This document shows positions 21,310 to 64,000 of a stretch of DNA of 64,000 nucleotides, piece after piece. Position 1 is the stretch's first letter; each line of letters opens with the position of its first letter. Below the pieces are notes generated by a model. That model worked only from the letters and a program-made list of their open reading frames with translations, was not told the origin of the DNA and did not search any database. Location: NCBI GenBank assembly GCA_947184155.2, contig CAMXCT020001465.1, positions 35,715 to 99,714 of the forward strand, in the 5' to 3' direction. This DNA comes from Cladocopium goreaui (taxonomy: Eukaryota; Sar; Dinophyceae; Suessiales; Symbiodiniaceae). The position numbers were made by a program, and so were the translations under genes.

Positions 21310-22018
21310 CATATATTGTTTTCAGGGTTTCACTATTGTGGCAAGAAAGTTTGGGAGACCATTTTTTTTGACCAAAAAACGGCCTCTAATTGCTGAGAGG
21401 CAAACTTTTTTCCAAAAGCATTTGCCAAATTCAAATGCCAAGCATTTCCCAAGGAGCCGATCCCTTATTAAACCCTTATTAAAGAACAGCTTTCCACAAT
21501 TTTCCAAGGCCCTGGACCAGGAGAGGCTCCATTTCACTTTAGCAGGTTTGTTCGCTGGGTTCACTATTGTAGCAAGCTTTGCCAGAGCAAAATTCAAACT
21601 CCAAGCCTTTCCCAAAGGAGCCAATCCCTTATTAAACCCTTATTAAAGGACACCTTTTCCACAATTTTCCAAGGCCCTGGACCAGGAGGGGCTCCATTTC
21701 ACTTTAGTAGGTTTGTTGCTGGGTTCACTATTGCAGCAAGCTGTGCCAGAGCAGCTCCTGGAAGCCCAGAAGAGAAGCAAGCCTTTTCCAAAAGCAATTG
21801 CCAAATTCAAACTCCAAGCCTTTCCCAAAGGAGCCAATCCCTTAATAAACCCTTATTAAAGAACAGCTTTTCCACAATTTTCCAAGGCCCTGGACCAGGA
21901 GGGGCTCCATTTCACTTTAATAGGTTTGTTGCTGGGTTCACTATTGCAGCAAGCTGTTGCCAGAGCAGCTCCTGGAAGCCCAGAAGAGAAGCACGCCTTT
22001 TCCAAATTCAAACTCCAA
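21310..22018. repeat. ~160-210-bp tandem repeat, four copies
   Basis: Units share CCAAGGCCCTGGACCAGGAG (about 21,507, 21,671, 21,881), GGGTTCACTATTG and TTATTAAACCCTTATTAAAG. The last copy breaks at CTCCAAGCCTTT, exactly where the 9-bp array begins. Confidence 0.85.
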
Positions 22019-24415
22019 GCCTTTAAATACTACAACTACTGCAAGTACTACAAGCACTACAAGTACTACAAGTATTACAAGTACTACAAGTACTACAAGC
22101 ACTAAAAGTACTAAAAGCACTACAAGTACTACAAGTACTACAACTACTACAACTACTTCAAGTACTACAAGTACTACAAGCACTACAAGTACTACAAGTA
22201 CTACAAGTACTACAACTACTACAAGCACTACAAGTACTACAAGTACTACAAGTACTGCAAGTACTACAAGTACTACAAGCACTACAAGTACTACAAGTGC
22301 TACAAGCACTACAAGTACTACAAGGACTACAAGTACTACAAGCACTACATGCACTTCAAGTACTACAAGTACTACAAGTACTACAAGTACTACAAGTACT
22401 ACAAGTACTACACGTACAACAAGTACTACAAGTACTACAAGTACTACAAGTACTACACGTACTACAAGTACTACAAGTACTACAAGTACTACAAGTACTG
22501 CAACTACTACAAGTACTACAAGCACTACATGCACTTCAAGTACAACAAGTACTACAACTACTACAAGCACTACAAGTACTACAAGTACTACACGTACTAC
22601 AAGTACTACAAGTACTACAAGTACTACAAGTACTACACGTACTACAAGTACTACACGTACTACAAGTACTACAAGCACTTCAAGTACTACAAGTACTACA
22701 AGCACTACAAGTACTACAAGTACTACAAGTACTACAAGTACTGCAACTACTACAAGTACTACAAGTACTACAAGTACTGCAACTACTACAAGTACTACAA
22801 GCACTACATGCACTTCAAGTACTACAAGTACTACAACTACTACAAGCACTACAAGTACTACAAGTACTACAAGTACTACAAGTACTACAAGTACTACACG
22901 TACTACAAGTACTACAAGTACTACAACTACTACAAGCACTACAAGTACTACAAGTACTAGAAGTACTACAAGTACTACAACTACTACAAGCGCTACAAGG
23001 ACTACAAGCACTACAAGGACTACAAGTACTACAAGTACTACAAGCACTACAAGTACCACAAGTACTACAAGTACTACAAGTACTACAAGTACTGCAAGCA
23101 CTACAAGTGCTACAAGTACTACAAGTACTACAAGTACTACAAGTACTGCAACTACTACAAGTACTGCAAGCACTACAAGTACTACAAGGACTACAAGCAC
23201 TACAAGCACTACAACTACTACAAGCGCTACAAGGACTACAAGCACTACAAGGACTACAAGTACTACAAGTACTACAAGTACTAAAAGTACTACAACTACT
23301 ACAAGCACTACAAGTACTACAAGCACTACAAGTACTACAAGCACTACAAGTACCACAAGTACTACAAGTACTACAAGTACTACAAGTACTGCAAGTACTA
23401 CAAGTGCTACAAGTACTACAAGTACTACAAGTACTACAAGTACTGCAACTACTACAAGTACTGCAAGCACTACATGCACTTCAAGTACTACAAGTACTAC
23501 AACTACTACAAGCACTAGAAGTACTACAAGTACTACAAGTACTACAAGTACTACAAGTACTACACGTACTACAAGTACTACAAGTACTACAAGTACTACA
23601 AGTACTGCAACTACTACAAGTACTACAAGCACTACATGCACTTCAAGTACAACAAGTACTACAACTACTACAAGCACTACAAGTACTACAAGTACTACAC
23701 GTACTACAAGTACTACAAGTACTACAAGTACTACAAGTACTACACGTACTACAAGTACTACACGTACTACAAGTACTACAAGCACTTCAAGTACTACAAG
23801 TACTACAAGCACTACAAGTACTACAAGTACTACAAGTACTACAAGTACTGCAAGCACTACATGCACTTCAAGTACTACAAGTACTACAACTACTACAAGC
23901 ACTACAAGTACTACATGTACTACAAGTACTACAAGCGCTACAAGTACTACACGTACTACAAGTACTAAAAGTACTACAACTACTACAAGCACTACAAGTA
24001 CTACAAGTACTACAAGTACTACAAGTACTACAAGTACTACACGTACTACAAGTACTACAAGCACTACAAGTACTACAAGCACTACAAGTACTACACGTAC
24101 TACAAGTACTACAAGTACTACACGTACTACAAGTACTACAAGTACTACAAGGACTACAAGCACTACAAGCACTACAAGTACTACAAGCACTACAAGTACT
24201 ACAAGTACTACAAGTACTACAAGTACTACAACTACTACAAGCGCTACAAGTACTACAAGTACTACAAGTACTACAAGTACTACAAGTACTGCAAGTACTA
24301 CAAGTACTGCAAGTACTACAAGTACTACAAGTACTACAACTCCTACAAGCACTAGAAGTACTACAAGCACTAGAAGTACTACAAGTACTACAAGTACTAC
24401 AAATACCACAAGTTC
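22019..24415. repeat. 2.4-kb ACTACAAGT (9-bp) array
   Basis: Over 250 copies of a 9-bp unit with recurrent variants (ACTACAAGC, ACTACACGT, ACTGCAACT, ACATGCACTTCAAGT). Because 9 is a multiple of 3, several of the six frames stay open over most of the array (TTS, QVL, KYY repeats; VVL on the minus strand), giving two open frames above 800 codons. Variant combinations recur in blocks (around 22.34-22.95 and 23.46-23.97 kb), showing higher-order duplication. Not treated as coding. Confidence 0.95.
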
Positions 24416-24429
24416 ATCGGCAAAAAAAG

Positions 24430-24610
24430 ACTTTTTAATTAGGTTTCAATTGTAGCCAATTGAAATCCTTACTTAAGTGAGGATTTGTTTCCTGGGAAGA
24501 CAATATTTGACCTTCCGCTTTAAAGAGAGTACAGCTATTGTTGAGGGGAGGGGGGGGCCTCACACTAATCAGGAACCAACATTAAATCATAGCCAATGCA
24601 ATTTCCAGCA
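24430..24610. repeat. Dispersed repeat fragment, copy 1
   Basis: ATTGAAATCCTTACTTAAGT and GGGGCCTCACACTAATCAGG also occur at 26,467-26,585, separated there by a different spacer. Confidence 0.65.
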
Positions 24611-28000: not shown

Positions 28001-31000
28001 TTTCAGATCCTGTTGGCCTGTAGTTGATTAAAAAGCTTTCGACTTCAGGTGAGTGGTTCTCAATTCTCTTTTCCCATGATTTCTTTCCCCTCTCCACAAA
28101 TACAATAACAAATAGCCGCCATCGTATTGGTGTCCAATTCTTCAAACTCTTGCCTGTTTAGGGCAAAAGTCCATAGTCATGGTGTACGTCTTAATTAACC
28201 ATAAACTATGCAACCAGTTGTCAATGCATCTTTTTTCTTGTCCAAGTCATGCATATATATATATGACATACATACATTCCGGCAATCAGTGACAATAACA
28301 ATCGTTGAGGCAGTTGGTCAAAGGAAGTCTGTGGCTTTCCATGCTGACGTCTCACATGCCAGGCATCCCTACTCTGGCCACAATGACAGCAAATCTGCCA
28401 GGTCACTATGATCCTGCATCTTGGAAGGGTTGAACACGGTGGCTATGGATATGTAATGATATTAATATGGATGATTATATTATATGTAATGATATATATA
28501 TATGGATGATTTATATATATAAATGTTGTCAAAGGATCCCTAAAGGCAATTGACAACATTTTTTTGTCCAACTGCCACATTGTGCTTTGGATCTTTGGAA
28601 AGGTTCGCGAGTTTATCCCACGCTTTGGCGTCGTTGATCGCTGTCCTACGCCCTTCTTCGAGCTCATTGTAATGCTGATGGGCAATAGGCCGGTTTTTGG
28701 ATGCAACTTGGCCTTTATGGATTGTGTTCACATAGTCTATCACTTTGCCAAATGATGGCGGAAGGTATTAACATTTTGGCTCAAGAAACATGGTGTTGAG
28801 GAGAGTGGAGGAGGTCACTCATTTGTAGGTTCAGATAATTTCCCCGACAATTTAGTTTTTCTTGTCGTGGCATCACCTAACACGACACCTCCAAGGAAGA
28901 TCAAGGAAGTGTCTTATCAACCGTATCATACCGTATCAAGTGCATCAACTTGGACGCATTTGGACGCCACCAAATCCCACAAAGATGCCAGCGGTTTCAA
29001 AATCGACAGACTACAGACCCAAAGCCAGCCTCAATACATTGGGTAGGAGACCGAATTAGAGGTAGCGCGGCAACCGACGCTTTTTTGCAGGACGACGACG
29101 TGATTGCAGCGATAAATTTCATATATGCATATTCAAACGTGTATATATATATAATATCATTATATGTTCATGCAGCTCCTGCTGTCAATGCCATTTGTTC
29201 TAGATTGGAAAATCACTGACGTAGAGTATGGTGTGTAGAAACTGAAATTGCCTCCCTTATAACTGGCCTCTCGAGGTCGCAACACAAAGGGATTTCACAA
29301 CATCTTGGGGGCCACAATCCCCATACCAGCAAGCTTTCCTGTGGTCCTATGGTCCAAAAATGGAGCCTCCATCCACCAAAAATATCCAAAAATGCTAGTC
29401 TAGGGAAAAATTGAAGGTTAGTGCATCCACTCTTTTAAAACTGTTTTAAACATACAAATAAGATCTCATGGTCTTTCATAAGCACGCCCTGAAACTGTGC
29501 TAGCTCCTGCAAGCCCAGCCGGCTCCTTGGTGCAGTTCACATCGCATGAATTCACAGAGTGCGATGTAAGATACTCTATGCCACTATGCTAGATGTCAAA
29601 AACCATGCAATTCTGGGGTGTTTGGTACTTACAAATACTGTAATATCTGTAATTACCCTAATTGGCTCTTTGGGCTCCAGTCAGCTCAAGCGAACTTCAA
29701 GGGCTCAAAAGTCCTTGAAATGGTGCGCCAATTTCATCCAATTTCACGCTTCCCGGAACGGCAACAAATTCATTTTGCAACCATAAATGGTACAGCTTGG
29801 GATTCAAAATTCAAACCCCGCCCCGTCAACGGCGCCGGAGCTGTGGCAGGGCACTTTTCAAAGACGATGCCGAAAGTGCGCTCGAAGTGCCCTGGGAGCT
29901 CCTGAAAGGAACAGTGGATTGGAAGGGACACAATTGATGGACTATCACTGGATTGGATTTGTTTTGAAAAATCTACCACAAACCATGGTGTTTTTACATC
30001 GAAATATAGGGTTTTCCTTTAAATTGTCTCTTCAAACAAGTCTGGGCGATTGTGTTTAAACCTGAACATTGTCATGACGTGACATAGTTTTCATGTCATT
30101 AAACCAACTCGACTGCCCAGACTCTGAATCACAGCGTTTTTTTTTATGGTAAAACATCATTTTGGTGATGTGACTCATCATTACCATATGGATCCATATG
30201 GCCTTAAACAAATCAAGACCCACCAAGACTGTAAATCTCTGGATTGGTGGGGCAATTGCTGCCACCAGTCCTTCAGCCCCATCCACGGTCTGCCAGATTT
30301 CAGGATCGTCCGACGCGCAGCCTATCCACAAGGCGCTGTGTTGCCCAGCAACATCAATACCTCATCACTATTTCATCATTGTGCAAATAGATACTAATAG
30401 TCTAATAGCTAGTGACTAGCTACACTGGGACGTGAAAGTCAGTGCATATGTGGAACCAAGGTAAAAACTGCATGGGACGCCGCGCATTCAGGAAGTCAAA
30501 CAAGTCAATGCAACTAGGTCTAAAACACCATGGGACGCACTATGTAGAAGTGTTATTTTTAGATCCCTGGCAATGCACTTTTCTATTGCCAAATTTTCCA
30601 AATCCCCATCAGGACGCGTGTGCACAGTTATGCCCCATAATCTTAAAAATATATACCAAATTTTCCAAATCCCCATCAGGACGCGTCTCCACACATGAAT
30701 CTCAAATATGTCTGAATGTCTGAATAATAATCTGAAGGAATGTTTCTGGTGGCTTTCCTGAAGGAATTTGATAAGGAATGGAAGACTTCGGGATTCGAAT
30801 GTTGCTAAGTGAATGTACAGTTGCAAATCTCATCCACGTTCTCTGCCCTGGCACACCGCTTACGCCAGACAAAATCTCTTGCTTCTCTGCCCAAAAACCG
30901 CGCCTTGCCCAGAAGCAGCAACACAAGCAACAACAACAGCAGCAGCAGCAGCAGACCATTGCAAAGCCTTTCCAAAACCTCTCCGGGCTGGGTTTTGACT

Positions 31001-37000: not shown

Positions 37001-40000
37001 CATTTTTCATGGTTCACTGGTGACTTCCCGGGCATCGTCCAGCGTTCGTCGCTCTTGGCGTTCCACATCTACACTCTTGGCGTCCTTCCGCTCCACCCGG
37101 CGACTACGAACGCCCGAAACCTGCGGCTTTTCCCAGGTCGGTGACCAGGTTGGATTTCTCGGATCTGACTCCATAACTCTTTGGATGTTTGGGGGGTGTA
37201 AGCCATTAATCATCCATATTAAAGACCCCCATTAAATGGAATGACCCCCATTAATCATTCCATATCATTCCATTAATCGTTCTATCACATTCTATAAGCC
37301 ATTTTGGCTGCTGGTGGCATCCCGGTGAGATCGAACAACTTGCCCCAGGTTTCTATTGACGAAAACGTCTCGAATATCAATACTGCAATGGGTCGCAAAG
37401 TATCATACAGTACTGCATCACCATGAATTAGTTCTTTCAAATCAACCTTGGTAGCTGTCTGTTCAAACAACTACCACTGCTTCTCATTGGATGAACCCAT
37501 TTGGCTAAGTGGTTTACCCATGATGCCATGGAGCTCCCCACTGCAAAAACAAGCCCCCAACTTTCAAAGACACAACCTTTCCCACATGTTCAAAAACATC
37601 GCCTTCAAAATGGATTCAAAAAAAATCTAAAAAAGATAATAATATCTTTTGGATTTATAAGCAGATTCATGGCTTTTTTTTCCCACAAGATTTCACAACC
37701 CCTTAGGAGCCCTTGGACGACGATCTTTGACCTGGACAGGCTCGCGCTCTTCGCCGGAAATCTCGCTGGGCACCTCGATGGAGGAAGCCTGCCGCGATAC
37801 GGCACTGCAACGGCAGCAAGGATCCCTTCAACCCATTTTGGGATCCATGGATGATGTGGGAATATCTGTATATATCCTCTATATATATATATATATGCAT
37901 ATATGTAATGTAGTATAGATACGTGATAATATCTTCTGTGAGAACAAGGAGTCTCATCAGAGGGGTTCTCATCAGCTTGGAAACAAATTAAAACAAATTG
38001 ACAAATTATAAATCATTTTGAAACATTAGATTTCATTAGATTTCATTAGATTAAATTTCAATGATAATCATGTTTCATACCTGTTTTTGGGGCAAACATG
38101 ATGTGACATATGCTGTGGCCCTGGTAGCCATTGTGGCCCCACCTCGACCTCCCCTTCTCATACATTCTGATGTGACATAGTACTGCACTGTCTTTCTGGC
38201 CAATGTAATAAGAATATCAAAAGATTGACTATGTATTGAAATACACTATTATCAAGTAATTGGTTGTGACGCACTGTACTTGTCTTGTTTAAGCATGTGC
38301 TATATTCACTCGCAGCTATATTGTAAGCACTTGGCACTTTTTATTTGTATGTAGATGCAATTCTCCTCAAAAAAATGTTTCAATATATTGTAAAATTTTC
38401 TGATAAAGTCTGCCAAAAAAAAGGACATTGCAGCAATACTAAAATTAGTCTACACAGACTAAATCAAATACTAAAATTTGGCGCAGGAGGTGCCAAAATT
38501 TGTATATTTTTTTTAATTTTTTTTAATTGTTGTTATTTTATTTTTATTTTTTATTTTTTTCTATTTTTTTCTTTTTTTTTCTATTCTATTCTATTTTTTT
38601 CTAATTTTTCCTAATGTTTTCTATTTTTTTCTAATTTTTTCAGTTTTTTCTAATTTTTGGCATTTTTTGTTTTTTTTTTATGTATACTTTTGTTTTTGTA
38701 ATTTGTTCCGCAACCCTGGAGGGGCTTCCCCTCTTGATGTGCCAGGATGTGCTCCTGGGGGCAATCACACGTAGAGTGGAGTTTGCTTCGGAGTCAACCA
38801 CCGTGGAGAAATCACTGGGTCCTGTGCACAATTGTTCACAGTTTGTAAGCACCAACTGGGGTAACTGTAATTGTAATAAAATTGGCCCTTGCCAGCAATC
38901 CCTAATATCAGAGCAACCCTCGACCCCAGATGTGATTAAGTGTTAAAACAACTTGTATTTAATATGCATCATCATTACAAAGATTCTATCTTAATAGTTC
39001 CATCATCATTTTGGCAGGGTTCAATGTCAAACAAAGTAGAATATAGACTGAAAGAAGTAGAGGTGCAGCAAGCAGGGGTCATTGCAAACAATGTTCTAGT
39101 CTGTTTCAGACTTGCCACCTAAGACTAAGTACAGCACAACCTAGCACAGAAAAAAAAAGTGATGGGCACGGAGTAATTTGTTTTTATTTGTTTTAATTTG
39201 TTTTAATGTTTAATCATGTGTTTCAATGTTTTGATATTTTTTGATATTTCAATCATATTATTTTAAATATGATTTATAATTTTTCATTCTGGCCAGCCAT
39301 GGCTGATGAGATACCCTTTGATGGGGTACCCAAGCCTGACAATTGATAATACACAAAAAATATATGCTGTATTATAATATTTATTATATGATATGTGAAA
39401 TATCATGAAATATATTGAAATATATGATTTGGTTTGTGACATGATATTACCAACATTTACCCACAACATCTAGTTATCCAATCTGGCAATGTAGCAATCA
39501 ACAATTTGAGTGACGACAGGAGTCGGGATAAGTTGGGGGATCGCACATGATACAACCGAAACAAATCATCTACAAAGGAAGCGTAAGGATCAAACCGGAA
39601 ACCTAAGCATAAAACAAACCAGGCATTGGTATGACCAATTTTGTGGATGAGGTGACTGGAACCAAAGCTTCACAAGGGATATTTCATCAAGAAATGACTG
39701 GTGATACTGAACCTGGGGAAAGAGTTGGCAATTTGCGGGTCAAACCACTGGTAGCCTGTAGTGACACTGTACGTGACTATAGTGACCATCTCAAACATAT
39801 TCACATACTAGACTTTGCACGACTTTGCCAAGATACTATACTATACTATACTGGAATCCTCACAAGACTAATTTTGACGTTACAAGTAGATTGTATTCAC
39901 CCATATTCACCCATACCCACTTGGCAAACAACCTCTGTAGACCTTTCTATTTGCTTCGTTTAGTTTCATTCCACGGCCGGCCCTGCTTTGTCAACTTCAA

Positions 40001-45119: not shown

Positions 45120-47786
45120 AAGCTTTTCCAGGATTCCGGGCGCTTTCCAAGAGCTTTTCTAGTGGCTTCAGAAAGCAACGTTAGGCACTAGCCTGCCTCC
45201 AAATGCCTCGCGGCGCCCTTGCCACGCTTTCCAAGAGCTTTTCTAATGGCTTCAGAAAGCAACGTTAGGCACTAGCCTGCCTCCAAATGCTTCGCGACGC
45301 CCTTGCGAAAGGCTGTTGCTGCATTCTGGGGGCAGTAGCCTGGCTTGAGGCTTTTGCGGCATTCTGGGCGCTTTCCAAGAGCTTTTCTAGTGGCTTCAGA
45401 AAGCAACGTTAGGCACTAGCCTGCCTCCAAATGCCTCACGGCGCCCTTGCCACGCTTTCCTGGAAATTTTCTCAAAGCAACGTTAAGCACCAGGCTGCCC
45501 CGAAACGTGTCCCGGCGCCCTTGGCGGCCCAGCAGCGTGTCCTTTGGCGACCTGCCGGGCGCTTTCCTGGCGATTCTTTTCTGGTTTCAGAAAGCAACGT
45601 TAAGCACTAGGCTGCACCGAAACGTGTCCCGGCGCCCTTGGCGGCCCACCAGCGTCTCCTTTGGCGACCTGCCGGGCGCTTTCCAGGAGATTTTCGTCTG
45701 GTTTCAGAAAGCAACGTTAGGCACTAGGCTGCACCGAAACGTGTCCCGGCGCCTTTGGCGGCCCAGCAGCGTCTCTTTTGGCCACCTGCCGGGCGCTTTC
45801 CTGGAGATTTTCTTCTGGTTTCAGAAAGCAGCGTTAGGCACTAGGCTGCACCGAAACGTGTCCCGGCGCCCTTGGCGGCCCAGCAGCGTGTCTTTTGGCG
45901 ACCTGCCGGGCGCTTTCCTGGCGATTTTCTTCTGGTTTCAGAAAGCAACGTTAGGCACTCGGCTGCACCGAAACGTGCCCCGGCGCCCTTGGCGGCCCAG
46001 CAGCGTGTCCTTTGGCGACCTCGTCTCCTTTGGCGACCTGCCGGGCGCTTTCCAGGAGATTTTCTTCTGGTTTCAGAAAGCAACGTTAGGCACTAGGCTG
46101 CACCGAAACGTGCCCCGGCGCCTTTGGCGGCCCAGCAGCGTCTCTTTTGGCCACCTGCCGGGCGCTTTCCTGGAGATTTTCTTCTGGTTTCAGAAAGCAA
46201 CGTTAGGCACTAGGCTGCACCGAAACGTGTCCCGGCGCCCTTGGCGGCCCAGCAGCGTGTAGCAACGTTAGGCACTAGGCTGCACCGAAACGTGCCCCGG
46301 CGCCCTTGGCGCCCTTGGCGGCCCAGCAGCGTGTCTTTTGGCGACCTGCCGGGCGCTTTCCTGGAGATTTTCTTCTGGTTTCAGAAAGCAACGTTAGGCA
46401 CTAGGCTGCACCGAAACGTGCCCCGGCGCCCTTGGCGGCCCAGCAGCGTGTCCTTTGGCGACCTCGTCTCCTTTGGCGACCTGCCGGGCGCTTTCCAGGA
46501 GATTTTCTTCTGGTTTCAGAAAGCAACGTTAGGCACTAGGCTGCACCGAAACGTGTCCCGGCGCCTTTGGCGGCCCAGCAGCGTCTCTTTTGGCGACCTG
46601 CCGGGCGCTTTCCTGGAGATTTTCTTCTGGTTTCAGAAAGCAACGTTAGGCACTAGGCTGCACCGAAACGTGTCCCGGCGCCCTTGGCGGCCCAGCAGCG
46701 TGTCTTTTGGCGACCTGCCGGGCGCTTTCCTGGAAATTTTATTCTGGTTTCAGAAAGCAACGTGAGGCACTAGGCTGCACCGAAACGTGCCCCGGCGCCC
46801 TTGGCGCCCTTGGCGGCCCAGCAGCGTGTCTTTTGGCGACCTGCCGGGCGCTTTCCTGGAGATTTTCTTCTGGTTTCAGAAAGCAACGTTAGGCACTAGG
46901 CTGCACCGAAACGTGCCCCGGCGCCCTTGGCGGCCCAGCAGCGTGTCCTTTGGCGACCTCGTCTCCTTTGGCGACCTGCCGGGCGCTTTCCTGGAGATTT
47001 TCTTCTGGTTTCAGAAAGCAACGTTAGGCACTAGGCTGCACCGAAACGTGCCCCGGCGCCCTTGGCGGCCCTTGGCGGCCCAGCAGCGTGTCTTTTGGCG
47101 ACCTGCCGGGCGCTTTCCTGGAGATTTTCTTCTGGTTTCAGAAAGCAACGTTAGGCACTAGGCTGCACCGAAACGTGCCCCGGCGCCCTTGGCGGCCCAG
47201 CAGCGTGTCCTTTGGCGACCTGCCGGGCGCTTACCTAGAGATTTTCTTCTGGTTTCAGAAAGCAACGTTAGGCACTAGGCTGCACCGAAACGTGCCCCGG
47301 CGCCCTTGGCGGCCCAGCAGCGCGTCCTTTGGCGACCTGCCGGGCGCTTTCCTGGAGATTTTCTTCTGGTTTCAGAAAGCAACGTTAGGCACTAGGCTGC
47401 ACCGAAACGTGCCCCGGCGCCCTTGGCGGCCCAGCAGCGCGTCCTTTGGCGACCTGCCGGGCGCTTTCCTGGAGATTTTCTTCTGGTTTCAGAAAGCAAC
47501 GTTAGGCACTAGGCTGCACCGAAACGTGCCCCGGCGCCCTTGGCGGCCCAGCAGCGTCTCTTTTCGCCACCTGCCGGGCGCTTTCCTGGAGATTTTCTTC
47601 TGGTTTCAGAAAGCAACGTTAGGCACTAGGCTGCTTTCCTGGAGATTTTTTTCTGGTTTCAGACAGCAACGTTAGGCACTAGGCTGCACCGAAACGTGTC
47701 CCGGCGCCCTTGGCGGCCCAGCAGCGTGTCCTTTGGCGACCTGCCGGGCGCTTTCCTGGAAATTTTCTTCTCGTTTCAGAAAGCAA
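45120..47786. repeat. 117-bp tandem array, block 1
   Basis: A few diverged units with GCCTGCCTCCAAATGC are followed by about 18 units of 117 bp starting AAAGCAACGTTAGGCACTAG and ending TTCTTCTGGTTTCAG. 117 is 39 codons, so a plus frame (GTRLHRNV...PWRPSSVSFGDLPGAF) stays open. An 18-bp insertion (46,02x, 46,46x, 46,96x) and a 9-bp one are also in frame, but a 10-bp insertion near 47,060 and truncated units break it. Not accepted as a gene. Confidence 0.9.
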
Positions 47787-49290
47787 GAGCTTTTCTAGTG
47801 GCTTCAGAAAGCAACGTTAGGCACTAGCCTGCCTCCAAATGCCTCGCGGCGCCCTTGCCACGCTTTCCAAGAGCTTTTCTAATGGCTTCAGAAAGCAACG
47901 TTAGGCACTAGCCTGCCTCCAAATGCTTCGCGACGCCCTTGCGAAAGGCTGTTGCTGCATTCTGGGGGCAGTAGCCTGGCTTGAGGCTTTTGCGGCATTC
48001 TGGGCGCTTTCCAAGAGCTTTTCTAGCGGCTTCAGAAAGCAACGTTAGGCACTAGCCTGCCTCCAAATGCCTCACGGCGCCCTTGCCACGCTTTCCTGGA
48101 AATTTTCGCAAAGCAACGTTAAGCACCAGGCTGCCCCGAAACGTGTCCCGGCGCCCTTGGCGGCCCAGCAGCGTGTCCTTTGGCGACCTGCCGGGCGCTT
48201 TCCTGGAGATTCTTTTCTGGTTTCAGAAAGCAACGTTAAGCACTAGGCGGCACCGAAACGTGCCCCGGCGCCCTTGGCGGCCCAGCAGCGTGTCCTTTGG
48301 CGACCTCGTCTCCTTTGGCGACCTGCCGGGCGCTTTCCAGGAGATTTTCTTCTGGTTTCAGAAAGCAACGTTAGGCACTAGGCTGCACCGAAACGTGTCC
48401 CGGCGCCTTTGGCGGCCCAGCAGCGTCTCTTTTGGCCACCTGCCGGGCGCTTTCCTGGAGATTTTCTTCTGGTTTCAGAAAGCAACGTTAGGCACTAGGC
48501 TGCACCGAAACGTGTCCCGGCGCCCTTGACGGCCCAGCAGCGTGTCTTTTGGCGACCTGCCGGGCGCTTTCCTGGAGATTTTCTTCTGGTTTCAGAAAGC
48601 AACGTTAGGCACTAGGCTGCACCGAAACGTGCCCCGGCGCCCTTGGTGGCCCAGCAGCGTCTCTTTTCGCCACCTGCCGGGCGCTTTCCTGGAGATTTTC
48701 TTCTGGTTTCAGAAAGCAACGTTAGGCACTAGGCTGCACCGAAACGTGTCCCGGCGCCCTTGGCGGCCCAGCAGCGTGTCTTTTGGCGACCTGCCGGGCG
48801 CTTTCCTGGAGATTTTCTTCTGGTTTCAGAAAGCAACGTTAGGCACTCGGCTGCACCGAAACGTGCCCCGGCGCCCTTGGCGGCCCAGCAGCGTGTCCTT
48901 TGGCGACTTGCCGGGCGCTTTCCTGGAGATTTTCTTCTGGTTTCAGAAAGCAACGTTAGGCACTAGGCTGCTTTCCTGGAGATTTTTTTCTGGTTTCAGA
49001 CAGCAACGTTAGGCACTAGGCTGCACCGAAACGTGTCCCGGCGCCCTTGGCGGCCCAGCAGCGTGTCCTTTGGCGACCTGCCGGGCGCTTTTTTGGAGAT
49101 TTTCTTCTGGTTTCAGAAAGCAACGTTAGGCACTAGGCTGCACCGAAACGTGTCCCGGCACCCGTCGCGGCCCAGCAGGATTTTCTTCTGGTTTCAGAAA
49201 GCAACGTTAGGCACTCGGCTGCACCGAAACGTGTCCCGGCGCCCTTGGCGGCCCAGCAGCGTGTCCTTTGGCCACCTGCCGGGCGCTTTC
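47787..49290. repeat. 117-bp tandem array, block 2 (duplication of block 1)
   Basis: The diverged leader units of 45,150-45,470 recur almost base for base at 47,787-48,110, followed by about ten 117-bp units including the 18-bp-insertion variant. This points to a segmental duplication with an offset near 2.63 kb and later loss of units. Confidence 0.88.
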
Positions 49291-61470: not shown

Positions 61471-61545
61471 TTCGCCACGCTTTTTACAAAATGGCATGGT
61501 TGACTAGAAACAAATCCTTACAAAATGCCTCCGTTTGTTACAAAA
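61461..61545 (+). repeat. Four spaced TTACAAAATG motifs
   Basis: TTACAAAATG or TTACAAAAATG occurs four times at 20-30-bp spacing immediately after the open frame above. Confidence 0.7.
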
Positions 61546-61969
61546 ATGCCCCTGTAATGGAACAGTGGAAATGTACACAGGGATGAACATTTGACTTCAA
61601 CTGATATTTCAGCTCCCAAAAAACAGCCATACCACCGGACGCCAAGAAAGGAGGAATCCTCAATCCAAATGGGAAGTCTGCATTGACCAATAAGTTCCTT
61701 TTTGTATATTGTTGTGCTGTATTTCCAAAGGCGTTCTTCTATACTTGTCCTTTTCCAATCGGAAAATCATACCATTGGACCATTGGACCATGGCCATCAC
61801 TGCAGGGCGCCTTTTCGGTGCAAAAAGATCACCGCATAGCCCGCTTCGAGGAATTCCTGCTGACGTGCGACACTCGATGTTTTTCGATGTTTTTCTTCAA
61901 CTACACAACAGGAACTCAACAGGAATCAGCTCAACATGCTCAATTTTTGCATTTGCACCTCTTTCACAC

Positions 61970-63652
61970 TCACATATTTTGCCCACTTGTGGTCGACCAG
62001 TCTGGTAGCCGTGTGGATCTAATGGAAAGCCGATTGGCACTTCGAAAATCTGCGGGTGAAACTGTAGTCACTTCGTCAGATATGGGTGAAACATCCAGCA
62101 TCTGCAGGTGGAAGTGGCTTGGCTTTCCGGACTCCTCCGCAACACTCACAGATGTGCTACGGGCCAACAAATAGGCACGGGGCCGACTGCCCGGAATGCG
62201 GAGCAACATGGCAGAAGGGAAGCCGGGAATTGCCCCATCCTCCACAGGAGGGCTGCGAGCTTTCTTAAAGAAGTCTTCCACGCGCGGCCAGTCATTGATG
62301 CGAATGAAATTCCGTAGGGTGGGCATCCCGTTCTCACGAGGATTTCGCAGAAATGAGAGGCTCACTTCCTCGATATCCATCCCTGGGCTTTCCTTGCTCA
62401 CCAAGAGGGTGGCCTGCACCAGTTCTTTGAGGGCTTCTGGGACTTCGATGGAACTTGCTTGAGAAGGCTCAGCAGGGCGCATCCCTTGAGGATGAACAGG
62501 GCACCAAGCAGGGGGAGCAGCAAGTGCATCAGGTGGAGCCAAAAATTGATCCGGATCGGCTCGCAAAGCCAATAGGAAGTAGTCCTGTCCTGCAGCGGCG
62601 AGGCTGGTGCAAAAAATATCTGTGGACACAGGGCCTTCCGCCCCCTGCAGAGCTATCCTCAAGCATGGTGGAATGCCGTCGCTCTCTCTTGGAGCTGTTT
62701 CACTCCGCAGGAACTGCAAGAAGTTTTGCCGCCCTTCAGGGTCCAGGAATAGGTCTAAGAAACTTGTGTCGGCTAATTTCTTTGGTGTTTTCAACAATCG
62801 TTCCAAGGAGCTTGCATCATCTACGATATTGTGATTGCGAGAGTCCAGCACCAAATCCCCATCGCAGACTCCTCTTAAGACTCTCCGCGAGGCCACCAAG
62901 AGGGAGGAAACATCTTGTGAATCCAGCTTACCTGCAATCTGCGATTGCATCGCAAGCACGATAAAGCTGACAAGTCCACAGGCAGCAGTGTGCGAGGCCA
63001 GAGTTGAAGCAAAGAACATGGGTTTGACATTCGAAAAACCAATCAATTGCAACTGTTTGTAAGTTAGCACCACAGCTCCAGAGATGTACACTGGAAGCGT
63101 CATCTTCAAATCAATGAAGATCACAGACAAAAGGACCATCGACACTGTTGAGATTTTTTCAGTGGCTAAGAACATCTCAAGGTCCGTCTCGTTGGCGACA
63201 CCACAAAGGTGCACAGCATAGGGGATAACAGAAGCAGCTTCCAGAAAGCGAATGTGGCTGGCACTTTTGATCTCCACCAAACCTGACTGAATCAAAGCGT
63301 GCACACCATAGCCGATAATGGTGCCTAAGAGTTGCACCCAGGATGCTTGACTGCCGATTGCCACCACTTGGTGCACGGCGGCCAAAGCAAGGGAAAAGGT
63401 GATGTGAATTGCCACGCATTGGACCATTCCGAACATCCCAATGCGAGCCCGCAAGAGCTCTTGCTGAAAACGCCGCTTCTTGTCCAGCTCCCTTTGGGTA
63501 ATGACATGCTTGTGCTGCCGGCACTTCTCCAACAGCCGTGACACCCCAAATTTCATATCAGATTTGGTCAAGCAAACATGTGGAATTCCCATGGCCATGG
63601 CAAACCACATGGCAAACCGGGATCCGAAGAACTTAGAAGGTTCCAGTTCCAT
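61970..63652 (-). CDS. Intronless multi-pass membrane protein with PAS-like cytosolic region (probable retrogene)
   Basis: A single 560-codon frame, by far the longest non-repetitive one in the window. The start ATG has an in-frame TGA 27 nt upstream, so the N-terminus is fixed. Residues about 12-28, 73-100, 104-127, 138-152, 167-206 and 212-236 are hydrophobic, suggesting about six membrane spans. A soluble region of about 320 residues follows. Within it, residues 250-370 (LRGVCDGDLVLD..., TSFLDLFLDPEGRQNFLQFL, FLLALRADP) and 430-505 (LRNFIRINDWPRVEDFF, AYLLARSTS) have the strand-helix rhythm of PAS folds. That is inference; the ligand and role are unknown. Every other gene here is split into exons under 310 bp, and a spliced-leader-like sequence lies 50 nt upstream, so it probably derives from a reinserted mRNA. 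It faces away from nothing obvious downstream; no poly-A tract is visible. Confidence 0.85.
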   Translation of the reverse strand: MELEPSKFFGSRFAMWFAMAMGIPHVCLTKSDMKFGVSRLLEKCRQHKHVITQRELDKKRRFQQELLRARIGMFGMVQCVAIHITFSLALAAVHQVVAIGSQASWVQLLGTIIGYGVHALIQSGLVEIKSASHIRFLEAASVIPYAVHLCGVANETDLEMFLATEKISTVSMVLLSVIFIDLKMTLPVYISGAVVLTYKQLQLIGFSNVKPMFFASTLASHTAACGLVSFIVLAMQSQIAGKLDSQDVSSLLVASRRVLRGVCDGDLVLDSRNHNIVDDASSLERLLKTPKKLADTSFLDLFLDPEGRQNFLQFLRSETAPRESDGIPPCLRIALQGAEGPVSTDIFCTSLAAAGQDYFLLALRADPDQFLAPPDALAAPPAWCPVHPQGMRPAEPSQASSIEVPEALKELVQATLLVSKESPGMDIEEVSLSFLRNPRENGMPTLRNFIRINDWPRVEDFFKKARSPPVEDGAIPGFPSAMLLRIPGSRPRAYLLARSTSVSVAEESGKPSHFHLQMLDVSPISDEVTTVSPADFRSANRLSIRSTRLPDWSTTSGQNM

Positions 63653-63701
63653 TATGTTCCATTGCAGTGGTCACAATCGTGGCAAGAGAATTTCTGAAGA
63701 A

Positions 63702-63716
63702 CTTGAGCCAAACGGT
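63702..63716 (-). other. Relict dinoflagellate spliced leader
   Basis: On the minus strand this reads ACCGTTTGGCTCAAG. The last 11 nt (TTTGGCTCAAG) match the 3' end of the conserved dinoflagellate spliced leader exactly, with a further CC one deletion away. It lies 50 nt upstream of the ATG of the intronless gene, in the same orientation. Confidence 0.75.
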
Positions 63717-64000
63717 GCATCCAAACGTAGTGGTCACGCGAAGAGAATTTCTGCATGTCGCTGCCAGCAGCGTCTCCTGGGTACAGAGAGCGCCTCTGGT
63801 TCCAGTGGAGAAGTTATCGATGAAACCTGGGAGCTCAAGGCGTGTCCGTGGTGAACGTCTGCTACAACCAGTATCCGGGAGTTCACAGACTAGTTGTAGT
63901 GGGAGTTGTTGAAAACTGAGTTTCAAGAAACTTTAACATCTTTAAATATCTTTATATATCTTTATATATCTTTATATAATCATTACAAACAAACAGCAAG
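63717..64000. other. No gene seen
   Basis: It contains a partial duplication (AGTGGTCAC ... GAATTTCTG at 63,666-63,696 and 63,729-63,752) around the relict leader, and a short TATCTTTATA repeat near 63,940-63,980. Confidence 0.5.

Follow-up and report, generated by a model that had tools for sequence, protein, structure and literature searches.

An uninterrupted reading frame and its protein family

We analyzed a 64,000-nucleotide stretch of the dinoflagellate Cladocopium goreaui (contig CAMXCT020001465.1, positions 35,715 to 99,714; hereafter the window). Its minus strand carries a 560-codon open reading frame (ORF) that belongs to a multi-copy protein family and is preceded by a sequence resembling the end of the dinoflagellate spliced leader. 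A first-pass annotation, made from the sequence alone, had described an intronless 560-codon gene. The frame is indeed uninterrupted over 560 codons, but homology to the family covers residues 1-518 only. The features of the locus, with relatives cited by their P numbers, are as follows.

61970..63652, minus: uninterrupted 560-codon ORF with an ATG start
62099..63652, minus: family-homologous part of the ORF, residues 1-518, matching P0001 at 511 of 518 aligned positions
61970..62098, minus: last 42 codons and stop, not family sequence, frame changed by comparison with P0001
63041..63496, minus: first five predicted helices of a six-helix bundle, mapped from the model of P0001
62864..63022, minus: sixth predicted helix, continuous with a long helix that precedes the first PAS-like domain, from the model of P0001
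62555..62863, minus: first PAS-like domain, approximate limits, from the model of P0035 mapped by alignment
62099..62413, minus: second PAS-like domain, approximate limits from predicted models, here without its last strand
63702..63712, minus: TTTGGCTCAAG, putative relict, an exact match to the 11 bases that end the dinoflagellate spliced leader
63713..63936, minus: flank upstream of the leader-like site; pieces of it, not all in one frame, are homologous by alignment to the P0002 N-terminal extension

The ORF stands out in its surroundings. We collected stop-to-stop segments of at least 70 amino acids in the window, of which 252 of 306 passed a low-complexity filter; excluding frames that overlap the locus, the next-longest is 187 amino acids, about threefold shorter. 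Some repetitive frames in the window exceed the 560-codon ORF in length. The GC content is 0.52 in the ORF and 0.45 in the window. Ten other frames among the 252 were compared with Pfam and gave no match at an expectation value (E) of 0.01, and no other gene was identified in the window, where the first-pass annotation had all other genes divided into tiny exons. Rfam at gathering scores gave no match across the whole window.

A single-sequence search and a profile search yielded 26 and 42 relatives, respectively, or 45 different proteins in all; only about 8,000 candidates were scored in each. They include a C. goreaui gene model (P0021) and an MMETSP transcript (P0035). Two gene models carry a Skav tag, which we take to denote Fugacium kawagutii. 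At the sensitivities used, no relatives were found in viral contigs, prokaryote genome contigs, or plasmids.

The protein pairs predicted membrane helices with two PAS-like domains. Simple hydropathy at 1.4 flags the helices only in part (residues 71-101, 108-126, 160-197, and 213-241). In the predicted models, both C-terminal domains show the PAS fold, a five-stranded sheet in which helices separate strand 2 from strand 3. Foldseek returned weak matches for the whole model (best E 1.5e-3) and strong matches for the PAS-only model of P0035. Superpositions were loose for the tandem (root-mean-square deviation about 10 Å or more) and tight for single domains. The two PAS-like segments proposed in the first-pass annotation are thus confirmed by predicted fold, and its membrane spans are supported, as six predicted helices. 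Domain libraries miss the PAS folds. The window protein matched no Pfam family at E up to 10; for 26 relatives scanned at E up to 1, Pfam gave 11 families, none of them a PAS family. No Pfam match to a class III adenylyl cyclase catalytic domain was found in the window protein or the relatives scanned, and the C-terminal part is PAS-like. A sequence search of solved structures with profile A2 gave nothing at E up to 1, and NCBIfam gave one weak match among four proteins (E 0.019), far below its cut-off.

Truncation and intron-like breaks

Comparison with P0001 shows where the window copy departs from the family. Nucleotides 62022-62102 match P0001 residues 557-583 in another frame, and about 100 nt corresponding to residues 525-556 are missing, a length inferred from the protein. 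With the missing stretch goes the final strand of the second PAS-like domain; we searched for this stretch elsewhere in the window and found no credible match (best E 1.1). P0001 continues through that strand into a tail, EQDLESI. The tail motif, a loose pattern drawn from the alignment, occurs in 23 of 45 relatives; many of the 22 without it are partial or frame-changed, though P0033 and P0040 lack it and are neither. The window copy also lacks four codons near the N-terminus and two near residue 505 relative to P0001. P0005 is identical to the window protein at 371 of 374 core residues, seems by eye to be missing the same C-terminal piece, and shows additional frame changes, with both of its ends affected. 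Because the frame jumps straight to sequence matching P0001 residues 557-583, we read the window copy as C-terminally truncated; either about 100 nt were deleted or the assembly is in error.

We examined introns across the family. Twelve relatives lie on contigs longer than 100 kb. Seven of them are uninterrupted (P0001, P0010, P0012, P0014, P0016, P0021, and P0040), with the qualification that uninterrupted rows include transcripts and gene models (P0021) and that raw ORFs and spliced models are indistinguishable among ENA entries. The remaining five break or carry an insert (P0015, P0017, P0018, and P0044) or change frame (P0026). Several relatives read collinearly and then enter unrelated residues, and the positions recur: after PQG in P0006, P0007, and P0037; after VQ in P0015, P0017, and P0018; and at GQD in P0034, P0036, and P0039. 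The window sequence at these points is CAAG/GG, GCAG/GC, and ACAG/GA (slash at the break). All are AG/G, which fits dinoflagellate introns; these use GT, GC, or GA donors and often derive from introners (PMC11453091 and PMC9860276). Some 390 or more codons are read before the first break in P0006, P0007, P0015, P0017, and P0018. P0037 and P0008 are identical over 190 residues up to PQG and then diverge, so they are likely unspliced and spliced (or intronless) forms of one gene, which would fix an intron site.

The breaks are distributed by lineage. In a tree of 40 of the 46 rows (P0026, P0038, P0042, P0043, P0044, and P0045 were left out as partial or changed), each of the three break types is confined to one small subclade, and none occurs in the window's. 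The group containing the window, P0001, P0002, P0003, and P0005 (support 88/79, not starred) has no break at the sites examined. Rows outside the 27-row main group, as defined by a midpoint root only, have none of the three breaks. P0038, P0041, and P0042 end or change elsewhere and were not counted as breaks. Nor was P0044, which belongs near P0021; about 48 extra residues separate its RRLG from its KTSFLDLF, and they probably represent read-through at another intron site.

Judged from these alignments, the pattern is more suggestive of introns acquired later than of a set present in a parent. Because each break site is confined to one other subclade, no intron-bearing parent of the window gene is indicated; among the relatives found, a search for such a parent of similar sequence turned up intron-like breaks in other subclades only. 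An intron-poor family with later gains is the simplest reading, and repeated loss is the alternative. Since its own group is break-free and the family is intron-poor, the window gene probably inherited its lack of introns, which is then no mark of its own retroposition.

The leader-like site and its flanks

TTTGGCTCAAG ends 49 nt before the ATG, in the orientation of the ORF. It contains the 9-base word required by the search in PMC8045281. A first-order Markov model predicts 0.073 occurrences of this 11-mer per window on both strands, and 60 simulated windows had a mean of 0.067. On one strand the expectation is 5.9e-5 per 100 nt, so chance does not readily explain its position immediately ahead of the only long gene. 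The first-pass annotation's relict leader 50 nt upstream stands as a leader-end 11-mer in the right place and on the right strand, but it is short.

Several observations weigh against a leader origin. The match covers only 11 of 22 bases, since at the 12th base the window has G where the leader has T, and the 15-base relict form employed in PMC12014239 is absent. One-mismatch leader sites number 3 in the window and 2.24 in shuffles, and 38 of 100 shuffles have as many. The 11-mer also sits within a block conserved with P0002, and most of the N-terminal extensions tested in relatives fit the leader poorly (below). TTTGGCTCAAG is not the longest leader-like site of the window, a standing ruled out by CATTTTGGCTCAAG at 28772-28785 (plus strand), with 14 exact bases of the spliced-leader end; the nearby frame 28881-29216 has no Pfam match. 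AGCCATTTTGGCT at 37297-37309 (plus strand) holds 13 internal spliced-leader bases and does not include the leader end.

The flank argues against an insertion boundary at the leader. The N-terminal extension of P0002 matches the window in three pieces of differing frame (63936-63886, 63844-63776, and 63725-63663), so that homology crosses the leader site and continues about 220 nt upstream. A homology that starts at the leader is thereby ruled out; in comparison with other copies, no boundary is visible there, and the match to P0002 reaches 63936, which is still compatible with an older event. Because this homology runs so far past the leader, retroposition, if real, predates the window copy. 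The frame changes between the matching pieces suggest that the region is non-coding in the window, and for this reason the P0002 extension is unlikely to be coding there.

We looked for the leader in 12 of 15 N-terminal extensions (P0030, P0023, and P0044 were left out). These fits are codon compatibilities derived from protein and not from DNA, and their shuffle fractions are uncorrected for 24 tests. Five of the 12 reach one mismatch to the leader 12-mer (P0002, P0005, P0015, P0026, and P0042; shuffle fractions 0.02-0.09), and seven need two to four mismatches. P0002, P0005, and P0042 fit the same 11-mer, with codons also compatible with G at the 12th base. P0026 comes within one mismatch of the 15-base relict, with 0 of 300 shuffles as good; how far this site lies from the start varies with the choice of start. 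The first-pass annotation had counted relatives without any leader-like sequence at the equivalent place as evidence against its reading, and the outcome is divided: three near relatives (P0002, P0005, and P0042) favor that reading, two distant ones (P0015 and P0026) do so more weakly, and the remaining seven need two to four mismatches. The leader remnant, if real, would be older than the split of the near relatives.

We found no direct repeats of at least 14 nt flanking the unit within 61500-64000. The repeats near the gene are a ATCTTTATAT array at 63938-63978 and one 14-nt direct repeat pair inside the ORF. A 16-nt inverted pair, 88% complementary, flanks the ORF at 61549-61564 and 63655-63670 and may be due to chance.

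Further observations concern the surroundings and the relatives. Repetitive long open frames lie at 610-2306, 21941-24455, and 45447-49012 of the window, with no evidence for these as genes. P0030 (gene model s535_g8.t2) contains almost all of a family member, which aligns with residues 1-569 of the 582 in P0028. On visual inspection, this member has part of a triose-phosphate translocator (TPT, E 3.8e-73) on either side; it may be a gene nested within an intron, or the model may have been merged, and the arrangement is a hint that family members move as units. P0010 and P0012 are both listed on 308,104-nt contigs, and P0015 and P0018, which have nearly the same intron-like read-through, are both on 259,131-nt contigs. 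Each pair probably represents neighbours.

Origin of the window copy

We consider it somewhat better than an even bet that the locus is a truncated copy from an intron-poor, multi-copy, apparently dinoflagellate family, carrying a worn spliced-leader remnant of an old retroposition. An old event in the ancestry of the window's subclade would have left the leader upstream of the gene, and the remnant would then have been inherited with flanking DNA instead of being produced by insertion of the window copy. The protein would most likely act as a sensor or adaptor anchored in the membrane, relaying a signal along the long, signalling-type helix to the two PAS domains; these, judging from the fold, might bind a ligand or associate with a different PAS protein. 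In the window copy, such a function would be lost.

The first-pass annotation proposed an mRNA-derived retrogene. What survives of this proposal is the uninterrupted ORF and the leader-like 11-mer at the usual 5' untranslated region distance; the gene does not emerge as a copy of an intron-bearing parent, and no insertion boundary is visible at the leader. In its recent form, in which reverse transcription of an intron-bearing parent's mRNA gave a copy that entered this site with its leader, we find the proposal quite improbable. The 11-base leader end is in the right place, relatives at 74-78% identity (P0006, P0007, and P0037) have an intron-like break, and P0030 lies together with the translocator as if uninterrupted units move. 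Against this, the upstream flank is common to the window and P0002, the four nearest rows have no break, the leader match ends at base 11, and no direct repeats of at least 14 nt surround the unit. Scarcely more credible is a broader model in which the six-helix tandem-PAS family spread mainly as leader-tagged message copies, kept the leader perhaps as a promoter, and later regained introns at AG/G sites, independently in each subclade.

That no retroposition occurred is unlikely, though far from negligible. The family would have been intron-poor from the start, and the 11-mer would be chance or a piece of conserved 5' sequence. The break-free rows outside the main group, the conserved block shared with P0002, the missing 15-base form, the seven poorly fitting extensions, and the lack of an excess of one-mismatch sites all favor this account. 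It has to contend with an expectation of about 6e-5 11-mers within 100 nt on that strand, with the fit of the distant P0026, and with some published surveys that put relicts at over a fifth of genes (PMC6050394). A different matter, compatible with any origin, is whether the window copy represents a decaying pseudogene, or else the P0001 gene itself in an allelic or assembly variant. We regard this as a serious possibility, short of even. The losses relative to P0001 and the frame changes at both ends of the near-identical P0005 point toward it, and the 518 family codons that are still open, nearly all identical to P0001, point away.

Published frequencies differ widely. In two Symbiodinium genomes, leader-tagged retrogenes were put at 22.3% and 23.2% of all genes, and relict leaders are best conserved 50-100 nt before the start codon and have been proposed as promoters (PMC6050394). 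Far lower counts come from Polarella, with 0.68% and 2.31% of full-length transcripts leader-tagged (PMC7245778), and a survey of 43 species found 6544 leader retrogenes in 37 of them, with 21 per taxon in Suessiales (PMC12014239). Single-exon genes make up less than 12% in symbiodiniacean genomes (PMC7245778). The window gene is at most one more case of an established process. Of more use is a protein family whose two PAS folds escape domain libraries, and whose members with and without introns could reveal the gain of introns at individual sites.

We compared the locus with known systems. Like DinoSL-tagged retrogenes (PMC6050394, PMC12014239, PMC8045281), it has an uninterrupted ORF with a match to the spliced-leader 3' end in the 5' flank; it differs in matching 11 bases and not 15, in having no parent among the relatives found, and in an upstream flank common to P0002. 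With the single-exon genes of Polarella and Symbiodiniaceae (PMC7245778) it shares a single exon and membership of a multi-copy family, but no tandem array was seen in the window. The six-helix membrane domains of the adenylyl cyclases AC8/AC9 and bacterial ImcA match the family within the range of helical bundles generally, and the family differs from those proteins in having no detected cyclase domain. PERIOD, HIF/ARNT, CLOCK:BMAL1, PpsR, FixL, and DosP carry PAS folds in series, as this family does. In contrast to these tandem-PAS proteins, the family has no Pfam PAS match and no DNA-binding or kinase domain was found in it, and its PAS pair is preceded by six membrane helices.
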